From positions 197,609 to 261,608 of the forward strand of contig PFDV01000005.1 of the NCBI GenBank assembly GCA_002772745.1: a stretch of DNA of 64,000 nt, given 5' to 3'. Below are positions 9,211-63,296 of this stretch, in pieces. Each line of letters opens with the position of its first letter. The first letter of the stretch is position 1. Source of the stretch: Candidatus Peregrinibacteria bacterium CG10_big_fil_rev_8_21_14_0_10_55_24. GTDB taxonomy: Bacteria > Patescibacteriota > Gracilibacteria > Peribacterales > Peribacteraceae. Position numbers and translations under genes: made by a program. The notes under the pieces are model-generated. The model saw only the letters and a program-made list of their open reading frames with translations, ran no database searches and was not told the DNA's origin.

Positions 9211-9230
9211 CCTGCCTGCCGGCAGGCAGG
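9211..9230. repeat. Perfect 20-bp palindrome CCTGCCTGCCGGCAGGCAGG
   Basis: A perfect palindrome in the gap between the divergent ruvB and the 8392-9108 gene. The identical 20-mer lies at 62916-62935, inside the anticodon loop of a tRNA-Ile copy, and a copy lacking one central base is at 23574-23592 inside a tRNA-Gly fragment. It is therefore a dispersed element and not an operator private to ruvB. Confidence 0.85.
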
Positions 9231-13124: not shown

Positions 13125-13192
13125 GCTCAGCAGGAAACACTAGTTTGGTGTTGGCTTAAATGCAATATCCAATGTTTGATTATGGTCCAGTG

Positions 13193-13260
13193 GTGGGTCA
13201 GGTGGGGATCGAACCCACGGCCAACCCCGCACGCGCTTACGCGTTGCGGGGCTGCTCTAC
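13193..13260 (-). pseudogene. 3' half of a tRNA-Lys-like copy broken by a palindrome
   Basis: On the minus strand, GTAGAGCAG is followed by a 27-nt palindrome (CCCCGCA...TGCGGGG arms), then TTGGCC and a T-arm, acceptor strand and CCA end identical to the intact tRNA-Lys at 13497-13571. The first 17 or so bases of the tRNA are missing; the GIY-YIG gene is joined in their place and its stop codon TAA lies within the palindrome. It cannot fold as a functional tRNA. Confidence 0.75.
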
Positions 13261-13482
13261 GATCCAGCGGGAAATATTCTTCGACTTTTTAATGCGAGTT
13301 TCCAGCGAACGAGCTTCCTCGAGAGAATGACAGGGAATGAATTTTTTCAATTCCCATTTCCCGATTCTTTTCGTTGTGTGCGTGTGTCCGTTTGCATGTT
13401 CAAGGAGCCTGCGATCCAAATCGTTTGTGCTACCGACGTAGTAACGGGTTCCCTGGAGAATATAGACGCCAATTTTTGCCAT
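13237..13482 (-). CDS. Small GIY-YIG nuclease next to tRNA-Lys
   Basis: An 81-residue single-domain GIY-YIG protein of the UvrC N-terminal/URI type. Visible catalytic pattern: VYILQ, then YYVGSTNDLDRRLLEH (GIY-YIG tyrosine, glycine and arginine), and the glutamate region LEEARSLETRIKKSK. The start ATG is 14 nt downstream of the tRNA-Lys CCA end and has a TATACT box 8 nt before it, so it has its own leaderless promoter placed directly after the tRNA. The last seven residues (VEQPRNA) are encoded by tRNA-derived sequence. Members of this family may cut branched DNA or act in homing; the target is unknown. Confidence 0.8.
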   Translation of the reverse strand: MAKIGVYILQGTRYYVGSTNDLDRRLLEHANGHTHTTKRIGKWELKKFIPCHSLEEARSLETRIKKSKNISRWIVEQPRNA

Positions 13483-13496
13483 GAGAACGGAGTATA

Positions 13497-13571
13497 TGGT
13501 GGGTCAGGTGGGGATCGAACCCACGGCCAAAGGCTTAAAAGGCCTCTGCTCTACCACTGAGCTACTGACCC
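13497..13571 (-). tRNA. tRNA-Lys(TTT)
   Basis: A complete cloverleaf on the minus strand: acceptor GGGTCAG/CTGACCC, D-arm GCTC..GAGC, anticodon loop CTTTTAA giving anticodon TTT, T-arm GTGGG-TTCGATC-CCCAC, and an encoded CCA. It is followed after 14 nt by the GIY-YIG gene and preceded by two broken tRNA copies. Confidence 0.95.
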
Positions 13572-13584
13572 GATGGAGGTAAAA

Positions 13585-13668
13585 GGAACAGAAAGGGATC
13601 GAACCCGGCGGCCAACCCCGCACGCGCTTACGCGTTGCGGGGCTGCTCTACCACTGAGCTACTGACCC
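13585..13668 (-). pseudogene. tRNA-like copy with palindrome in the anticodon arm (copy 1)
   Basis: 84 nt on the minus strand. The 5' part (GGGTCAG acceptor and D-arm) is identical to tRNA-Lys, the anticodon region is replaced by the 27-nt CCCCGCA...TGCGGGG palindrome, and the 3' part ends CTGTTCC without an encoded CCA. The T-stem pairs poorly (three mismatches) and the acceptor has a mismatch. An active tRNA is unlikely, although the anticodon stem GCCCC/GGGGT with a 19-nt loop could form. Confidence 0.65.
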
Positions 13669-13681
13669 GATGGAGGTAAAA

Positions 13682-13765
13682 GGAACAGAAAGGGATCGAA
13701 CCCGGCGGCCAACCCCGCACGCGCTTACGCGTTTCGGGGCTGCTCTACCACTGAGCTACTGACCC
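13682..13765 (-). pseudogene. tRNA-like copy with palindrome in the anticodon arm (copy 2)
   Basis: Same structure as the copy at 13585-13668 with one base change, which breaks one pair of the palindrome (CCCCGAA instead of CCCCGCA). That the change damages the hairpin argues that this copy is not under selection to fold. Confidence 0.6.
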
Positions 13766-23352: not shown

Positions 23353-23395
23353 TGCCCTTCGACAAGCTCAGGGCAAAATTCGCACTGCGAATTTT
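23353..23395. repeat. Two palindromes next to the tRNA-Gly(GCC) CCA end
   Basis: On the minus strand, the tRNA CCA runs directly into CAAAATTCGCA-G-TGCGAATTTTG, an 11-bp hairpin that uses the C and A of CCA (23375-23396). Next to it is TGCCCTTCGACAAGCTCAGGGCA (23353-23375), a palindrome of a widespread type. The TTTT in the first could serve as a weak terminator. Confidence 0.7.
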
Positions 23396-23471
23396 GGAGC
23401 GGATGACGGGAGTCGAACCCGCGACCTTCTCCATGGCAAGGAGACGCTCTAGCCAACTGAGCTACATCCGC
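23395..23471 (-). tRNA. tRNA-Gly(GCC)
   Basis: Complete cloverleaf on the minus strand: GCGGATG/CATCCGC acceptor, anticodon stem TCTCC/GGAGA, loop TTGCCAT giving GCC, T-arm GCGGG-TTCGACT-CCCGT, encoded CCA. Confidence 0.95.
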
Positions 23472-23520
23472 ATTAGTGAAGAAATGAACAATAAATACCA
23501 TTTTATCGCTCCTTCGGAGC

Positions 23521-23603
23521 GACTAGCCAACCCGTCTTCGTCCGCCGCAGGCGGACTGCGCCGGGCAAGCAGACCTGCCTGCGGCAGGCAGGGCTACATC
23601 CGC
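23521..23603 (-). pseudogene. tRNA-Gly 5' fragments separated by palindromes
   Basis: On the minus strand GCGGATGTAGC (first 11 nt of tRNA-Gly(GCC)) is followed by a near copy of the CCTGCC...GGCAGG palindrome (23574-23592), a TCCGCC/GGCGGA palindrome, and then GTTGGCTAGTC, which matches the tRNA's D-loop GTTGGCTAGAG. So a partial tRNA copy was split inside the D-arm by about 60 bp of palindromic DNA. A GCTCCTTCGGAGC hairpin (23508-23520) follows. Between tRNA-Gly(GCC) and the pilin operon there is no gene. Confidence 0.65.
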
Positions 23604-62854: not shown

Positions 62855-62875
62855 AACCTTCGCCGAGCGAAGGTT
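62855..62875. repeat. Hairpin abutting the CCA end of the broken tRNA-Ile
   Basis: AACCTTCG-CCGAG-CGAAGGTT. On the minus strand it starts with the last bases of the tRNA copy's CCA (CAACCTTCG/CGAAGGTTG). Confidence 0.75.
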
Positions 62876-62978
62876 GGTGGGCGATGGAAGACTTGAACTT
62901 CCGACTTCGACATTACCTGCCTGCCGGCAGGCAGGTCAGTGTCGCGCTCTAACCATCCGCCTGGGCGGATAATCGCCC
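62875..62978 (-). pseudogene. tRNA-Ile copy with palindromes in the D-arm and anticodon loop
   Basis: 104 nt with acceptor arms GGGCGAT/ATCGCCC, CCA and anticodon stem identical to tRNA-Ile(GAT) at 63220. The anticodon loop is cut between A35 and T36 by the 20-bp palindrome CCTGCCTGCCGGCAGGCAGG, and part of the D-arm is replaced by TCCGCC-CA-GGCGGA. The T-stem has changed but still pairs (GGAAG/CTTCC). Not a working tRNA unless the palindrome is removed. Confidence 0.8.
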
Positions 62979-63206
62979 TTTTAGAAATTCTCTTCCTTTT
63001 CCGGTTTTGAGAAATTTCTCACGTTCTCTTGCCTCTCTTTCGTTGGCATATTCCTCTCTATGTACGAGTTTCCAAGGTCCTTTGTTGTTCGTATACGAAG
63101 AAAATCCATCGTTCGCATTATGTTGTATGATTCGTTTCTCCAGATCATTGGTAAATCCTTTATAGAGTTTCCCTTTTGGATTTTGAACAACGTAGACGTA
63201 GTACAT
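62949..63206 (-). CDS. Small GIY-YIG nuclease next to tRNA-Ile
   Basis: An 85-residue GIY-YIG domain: MYYVYVVQNPKGKLYKGFTNDLEKRIIQHN (Tyr, Gly, Arg, His), then EYANEREAREREKFLKTGKGREFLKG, which is the usual end of the family with the catalytic Glu. The last residues (KGRLSAQADG) are read from the 5' end and D-arm palindrome of the broken tRNA-Ile. The ATG is 13 nt after the tRNA-Ile CCA, so it may depend on read-through from the tRNA promoter. Confidence 0.85.
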   Translation of the reverse strand: MYYVYVVQNPKGKLYKGFTNDLEKRIIQHNANDGFSSYTNNKGPWKLVHREEYANEREAREREKFLKTGKGREFLKGRLSAQADG

Positions 63207-63219
63207 CTTGCAAATGAGT

Positions 63220-63296
63220 TGGTGGGCGATTCAGGACTTGAACCTGAGACCTCGACATTATCAGTGTCGCGCTCTAACCAGCTGAGCTAATCGCCC
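63220..63296 (-). tRNA. tRNA-Ile(GAT)
   Basis: Complete cloverleaf: GGGCGAT/ATCGCCC, anticodon stem CGACA/TGTCG, loop CTGATAA giving GAT, T-arm TCAGG-TTCAAGT-CCTGA, encoded CCA. Confidence 0.95.

Follow-up and report, generated by a model that had tools for sequence, protein, structure and literature searches.

The locus lies in the window, which is the whole 64,000-nt stretch of DNA analysed and part of a 429-kb contig of a 1.29-Mb Peribacteraceae genome (99% complete). On the minus strand, an intact tRNA-Ile(GAT) gene with encoded CCA (63220–63296; ARAGORN, Rfam 72.5 bits) was followed 13 nt after the CCA by a GIY-YIG nuclease gene of 85 aa (62949–63206; Pfam PF01541, E 2e-15). Behind it lay a degenerate copy of the same tRNA, probably a displaced remnant (62875–62978, minus strand), recognized by its sequence match to positions 1–9, 17–36 and 37–77 of the intact tRNA. 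The copy is full length, since it spans the acceptor 5′ end to the CCA (62978 to 62875). The nuclease stop codon (62949–62951) fell inside its D arm, so that the gene end and the copy overlap. A sequence-only reading of the same DNA had noticed this order and the entry of the nuclease frame into the copy, and both are real.

The same reading had placed a palindrome in the anticodon loop of the copy. We found there a perfect 22-nt palindrome, ACCTGCCTGCCGGCAGGCAGGT (62915–62936), splitting the anticodon as GA|..|T, with a 20-bp core (62916–62935) that was absent from every shuffle of the window, even allowing 3 mismatches. Two features had been missed: a second hairpin (ATCCGCC-CAGG-CGGAT, 62955–62970; from sequence comparison), which occupies the position of the D arm's 5′ strand, and compensated changes in the T stem of the copy relative to the intact tRNA (GGAAG/CTTCC against CAGG/CCTG). 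The copy was not called as a tRNA by ARAGORN and had no Rfam tRNA match. Its predicted fold was cloverleaf-like, with an acceptor, a T arm and a longer anticodon arm (-53.1 kcal/mol, z -5.35).

Rfam gave no intron match in the whole window nor at the tRNA-Ile locus, and the upstream tRNA is uninterrupted; a group I intron or another known RNA was therefore rejected. The element consisted of the tRNA spacer, one GIY-YIG ORF and the tRNA copy, with no integrase. An assembly artefact or duplicate is unlikely, because copy and intact gene are not identical in sequence, the contig is long and homologous arrangements occur in other genomes. The genes flanking the locus were not found beside tRNA-Ile in any relative examined, the genus itself being represented by one genome.

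The PF01541 match (57 bits, cut-off 22.6) covered residues 1–70 of the 85-aa protein. Residues Y5, Y15, G17, R25, H29 and E63 were invariant in the alignment A1, and Y5, Y15, G17, R25 and E63 in 14 members. The closest solved relatives by sequence were the UPF0213 protein 1zg2 (E 3e-15) and SLX1 (7wme, E 4e-7). The AF2 model (pLDDT 84) had as nearest fold again 1zg2, then SLX1 (6sei), with I-TevI much weaker. The window protein belongs to the GIY-YIG superfamily, in its UPF0213/SLX1-like subgroup. It carries no separate DNA-binding domain and matched TIGR01453 weakly, so its choice of target may rest on DNA structure or on a very short sequence.

Companion locus, hairpins and a dispersed palindrome

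A tRNA-Lys locus in the window had been described as having the same architecture. It is real and more complex than described. The intact tRNA-Lys(TTT) (13497–13571, minus strand; ARAGORN) had behind it a GIY-YIG gene of 81 aa (13237–13482, minus strand; ORF with PF01541 match G000:C8:210884-211078) and a 3′ tRNA-Lys copy (13191–13260, minus strand; from sequence), in which a hairpin (13225–13251) stands in place of the anticodon arm. Upstream of the intact gene there were two more broken copies of the 5′ type (about 13584–13765, minus strand), each recognized by Rfam with 25.2 bits, under the cut-off. In all tRNA-Lys copies of this locus a near-identical hairpin replaces the anticodon arm, and the hairpin type recurs in another genus (G037/L168).

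Hairpins were found in copies of several tRNAs: Ile (D arm, anticodon), Lys (anticodon arm, in two genera), Val (D, anticodon and T), Met (anticodon), Phe, Ala and Gly (T loop), and a Bacteroidales Asn (anticodon, L214). The D-arm hairpin of the tRNA-Ile copy was common to the present genome (G000) and to G018, where G:C replaces one C:G pair; neither of the two changes alters the protein sequence of the overlapping ORF tail, RLSAQADG. A related D-arm hairpin, with its stem compensated or altered, was present in the tRNA-Val copy of G018.

The 20-mer of the palindrome occurred at nine sites in the genome, five of them without a tRNA and four in tRNA copies, where it lay once in the anticodon loop and three times in the T loop. 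Its second copy in the window (9211–9230) is intergenic between two genes and tRNA-free. Since it occurs both at tRNA copies and at tRNA-free sites, the 20-mer counts as a dispersed repeat rather than as a component of the nuclease unit itself. For the same reason, the reading hinted at earlier, in which the nuclease cuts the anticodon loop and the palindrome is excised from it, is not supported as stated; nor is an excisable palindrome or intron. Further copies of the 9211–9230 sequence, with long common flanks (gttccaacctcacc..cctcacccctctcc), were seen on contigs C1, C6 and C13.

Several other tRNA genes of this genome had tRNA pieces nearby. At tRNA-Gly(GCC) (window 23395–23602) there was an upstream 5′ tRNA scrap (GCGGATGTAGC), then CCTGCCTGCCGCAGGCAGG, and CCCTGAGCTTGTCGAAGGGC hairpin DNA immediately past the 3′ end. 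The tRNA-Thr(TGT) (L270) and tRNA-His (L280) genes had long tRNA copies directly behind them and no nuclease gene; hairpin DNA separated the tRNA-Thr gene from its copy. Two identical tRNA-Val(TAC) genes in inverted orientation (L006/L271/L272, C8:398.7–399.2 kb) had hairpin-interrupted D-arm fragments upstream, and a GIY-YIG gene about 440–670 nt off. A tRNA-Gly(TCC) gene (L012, C8:193.1 kb) had a near-complete upstream copy, with the 20-mer in its T loop; this copy reaches 39.5 bits when scored as a tRNA and may therefore be annotated as a gene.

GIY-YIG genes behind tRNA genes

The genome had eight GIY-YIG loci (PF01541). Five of the seven non-UvrC genes were situated 13–202 nt behind a same-strand tRNA (Phe, Glu, Leu, Ile and Lys), and another was about 670 nt downstream of tRNA-Val. 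Across 40 Peribacteraceae genomes, a same-strand tRNA was found less than 300 nt upstream in 46 of 97 PF01541 loci (expected 0.6), an opposite-strand tRNA in three and a downstream tRNA in four. The loci numbered from 1 to 14 per genome. Chance was rejected by the counts and by shuffles. The argument against chance that had been drawn from the two window loci is thus strongly supported, and extended to the family.

A protein tree was calculated for 113 GIY-YIG proteins. A sister clade from the same genomes, with the motif RCSDGSYYTG, served as a control and, unlike the cassette nucleases (those of the tRNA-linked units), showed no tRNA link: none of its 21 members had a tRNA neighbour within 400 nt, against 57 of the 91 others (Fisher p 3e-8). 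Recurrent subfamilies were found behind the same tRNA in different genera, namely Leu, Arg, Gln, Lys and Ile/Val. The subfamilies partly followed the tRNA isotype, with 44 label changes on the tree compared with 56.7 after shuffling (0 of 200 shuffles as low), on a tree limited by few alignment columns.

For the cross-phylum survey, GTDB genomes were scanned with one clade (A2), the broad alignment A1 being too diverse. Of 80 A2-related loci, 45 had a same-strand tRNA less than 400 nt upstream and none an opposite-strand one; seven of the 45 had a 3′ tRNA repeat, never upstream. The carriers included Patescibacteria (Falkow-, Moran-, Levy-, Roizman-, Davies- and Saccharibacteria), Omnitrophota and Bacteroidota, plus one Thermodesulfovibrionia bacterium. 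One carrier is a named cultured isolate, Robiginitalea aestuariiviva (L233). The Verrucomicrobia members of the scan had no tRNA link. A phage origin was rejected: viral contigs contained no confirmed relative of the A2 clade, phages gave one weak partial match to the window protein, and PHROG gave no strong match. In the Bacteroidales locus L214 (1660–2440), the C-terminal remnant of a second, different GIY-YIG gene was situated behind the intact one and before the tRNA-Asn copy, apparently two cassettes in layers.

Direction and breakpoints of tRNA duplications

We surveyed tRNA scraps at 121 distinct tRNA genes with both flanks, by searching the 13-mers of the tRNA ends on both sides. Of the 121 tRNAs, 25 had their last 13 nt repeated downstream, and no such repeat lay upstream or behind a different tRNA; 26 had their first 13 nt repeated upstream and one downstream. 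The set was partly chosen through GIY-YIG hits and is enriched for tRNA-Ile, so these frequencies are no population estimates; the direction and position of the scraps are less exposed to this bias. In every clear case the copy came from the same tRNA. In a larger set of 137 tRNAs, 27 had a 3′ repeat, about half of them with a GIY-YIG gene in the spacer. Spacers with the gene were mostly 270–440 nt long, and those without it 44–200 nt and often hairpin-rich. The automatic flag for the nuclease misses divergent or broken genes (e.g., L008, L048, L108 and L114), and the split was therefore checked against known loci. Duplications without a nuclease, 5′ types included, were about as frequent as those bearing one.

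The breakpoints were sharply placed and usually adjoined hairpins. The 3′ copies started in the T loop or the 3′ T stem in 18 of 25 cases, and the 5′ copies ended in the D stem or D loop in 24 of 27. The anticodon loop, which had been hinted at as the target, is not supported as such, as the tRNA duplication breakpoints are mainly in the D and T arms. The D- and T-arm segments are the most conserved between tRNAs, so that one machinery would reach all isotypes. In the His/Cys clade the units had terminal inverted repeats of up to 21 nt, whose ends coincide with the CCA and the T-arm repeat or miss them by no more than two bases. None were found at the Ile, Lys or Val units, and terminal inverted repeats as a universal model were rejected.

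An intact tRNA on one side and a 13–40 nt 3′ tRNA repeat on the other resemble a classical attL/attR pair, and breakpoints in the T loop or anticodon loop would suit it. The units could thus be tiny non-autonomous integrative elements, moved by a tyrosine recombinase in trans at tRNA 3′ ends, with the nuclease gene as cargo. We consider this improbable. The units are 270–440 nt long and lack an integrase, 5′-type duplications upstream are equally many and are not produced by att duplication, the inverted repeats are confined to one clade, and the nuclease subfamilies partly follow the tRNA isotype.

Plain tandem duplication of tRNAs, followed by unrelated insertions, would leave nothing special to the nuclease and would account for the copies without a nuclease gene at tRNA-Thr and tRNA-His (L270, L280). 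It is already disfavoured by the counts, namely the 46 strand-specific loci and the control clade without tRNA neighbours; together with the sharp breakpoints, these make it very unlikely. Equally hard to credit is a nuclease that acts on tRNA, as a ribonuclease or toxin, and for which the tRNA copy would serve as a decoy or antidote RNA. The cloverleaf-like fold of the tRNA-Ile copy, with its arms extended by hairpins, and the D-arm hairpin kept by a compensated change between G000 and G018 would fit such a role. Most copies, however, are just 13–20 nt of the tRNA 3′ end and cannot be decoys. A 3′ copy was detectable behind only about a quarter of the tRNA-adjacent GIY-YIG genes, and the nearest folds are DNA nucleases.

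Occupancy differed between close relatives. The congeners G037, G056 and G057 had cassettes at largely different tRNAs. At one tRNA-Lys slot with a common downstream flank, G037 had a gene like L008, G057 an unrelated GIY-YIG gene and G056 none; in G056 the tRNA is inverted and the site rearranged. A clean empty site with both flanks was not found in the congeners at tRNA-Lys or tRNA-His, the latter having no clear flank synteny. The Ile unit of G018, similar to that of the window, had two stops in the nuclease frame, as expected for homing elements in decay.

At the window locus itself, the intact tRNA-Ile and its copy were identical through the anticodon stem and differed in the T arm, where the copy has the stem of unoccupied relatives (L057–L059, L062); the intact tRNA differs only from the variable region onward. 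This pattern looks like a chimera, as predicted if an import displaced the native 3′ part; compensated drift of the copy could also account for the T-arm difference.

The nearest structures, UPF0213 and the branched-DNA nuclease SLX1, the hairpins clustered at breakpoints and the broad spread over phyla would also suit a host function. A resident SLX1-like nuclease behind tRNAs would then trim or resolve hairpins and stalled forks, and the duplications and palindromes would be by-products of fork trouble. The different tRNAs occupied in congeners, the unrelated gene at the same slot, the pseudogene in G018 and the range of 1 to 14 copies per genome make this explanation unlikely.

A candidate element family and its known analogues

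That dozens of related genomes, and other phyla too, show this arrangement at many tRNAs points to a so far undescribed family of very small selfish elements, which would settle in tRNA genes and leave one copy working. The window locus is probably a member of such a family, of homing type and living at tRNA genes. This reading is based on the same-strand tRNA association in the family (46/97), in the genome itself (5/7) and across phyla (45/80, none on the opposite strand), on the control clade (0/21), on the one-sided 3′ repeats and sharp T-arm and D-arm breakpoints, and on the subfamilies partly tracking the isotype. The differing occupied tRNAs in congeners, the two unrelated genes at one Lys slot, the chimera-like Ile copy, the two stops in the G018 nuclease and the His/Cys inverted repeats point the same way. 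From these observations we infer both cleavage by the nuclease and mobility of the element.

In its autonomous form, the element would consist of a single-domain UPF0213/SLX1-like GIY-YIG gene, which closely follows an intact tRNA on the same strand, together with either a displaced 3′ fragment of this tRNA or a degenerate copy of all of it. The nuclease would cut a cognate tRNA gene that is still empty, for the most part within the conserved T arm, and repair from a template carrying the element would then bring in the nuclease gene plus a complete tRNA 3′ part, so that the tRNA stays functional and the old 3′ part is shifted downstream. The strand bias and the 13-nt gap suggest that the nuclease gene may be expressed by read-through from the tRNA promoter. 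No longer selected for function, the displaced remnant would gather palindromic repeats, such as the 22-mer of the window. Similar hairpin DNA without a nuclease gene is also found between tRNAs and partial copies.

The strongest point against a homing-type element is the frequency of nuclease-free duplications, 5′ types included. The nuclease may be carried along by some other process, and the homing-type reading needs mobilisation in trans or some other cause for these duplications. Further points against it are the few detectable 3′ copies, the inverted repeats in one clade, the lack of a DNA-binding domain, the failure to find a clean empty site with both flanks in the congeners, and the choice of part of the tRNA set through GIY-YIG hits. 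A bolder and more doubtful proposal, which we put forward tentatively, is a distinct class of bacterial elements. Its minimal SLX1-like nuclease would recognise the D- and T-arm segments that all tRNA genes conserve, spread its gene together with a tRNA-restoring piece and mobilise gene-less hairpin elements in trans to the same breakpoints, leaving nested tRNA scraps around many tRNA genes in Peribacteraceae and other phyla. If true, these would be among the smallest autonomous mobile elements known (about 300–450 bp). They would account for many small GIY-YIG genes of Patescibacteria and Bacteroidota and for some of the palindromic repeats at the tRNA genes of these phyla; they would also represent an extra route for insertion into essential RNA genes without splicing.

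In a literature search that excluded preprints and included few subscription papers, we found no description of GIY-YIG cassettes that are linked to chromosomal tRNA genes and accompanied by displaced parts of the tRNA. UPF0213 and SLX1 nucleases resemble the cassette protein in sequence and fold; in the literature searched, UPF0213 proteins were not described as mobile genes linked to tRNAs.

In mitochondria, free-standing homing endonuclease genes, such as the Allomyces atp6 ORF, lie at the end of a host gene, supply a new end and displace the old one. The cassettes would be like them in restoring the host gene end. The host gene of the mitochondrial elements encodes a protein, whereas that of the cassettes would be a tRNA, with many isotypes and hairpin insertions. 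Integrative elements at tRNA 3′ ends and casposons share with the cassettes the tRNA 3′ end duplicated at the far end (25/121 tRNAs), and the inverted repeats of the His/Cys clade are a further likeness. The cassettes differ from them in having no integrase or Cas1, a size of about 270–440 nt and duplications of the 5′ type too.

The rRNA genes of CPR bacteria carry insertions with homing endonucleases, rarely including GIY-YIG ones, at stem-loops, many of them introns, in a paper whose text does not mention tRNA (PMC11270868). Shared with the cassettes are the CPR hosts, the homing endonucleases and the stem-loops of a structured RNA gene; those insertions are inside rRNA genes, whereas the cassettes are at tRNA genes.

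The nearest described analogue is SegB of phages T4 and T6, a free-standing GIY-YIG homing endonuclease significantly associated with phage tRNA genes and with a suggested role in breaking both strands of tRNA-containing DNA, which results in segmental duplication and tRNA-gene amplification (PMC13096335). As with SegB, the cassette gene adjoins its presumed target, tRNA genes of many isotypes. SegB is encoded by phages and, like I-TevI, has a separate DNA-binding domain, whereas the cassettes are bacterial and encode a single-domain nuclease of about 80–95 aa without one. In the cassettes, moreover, the gene is nearly always on the same strand behind the tRNA, with a partial copy of that tRNA.
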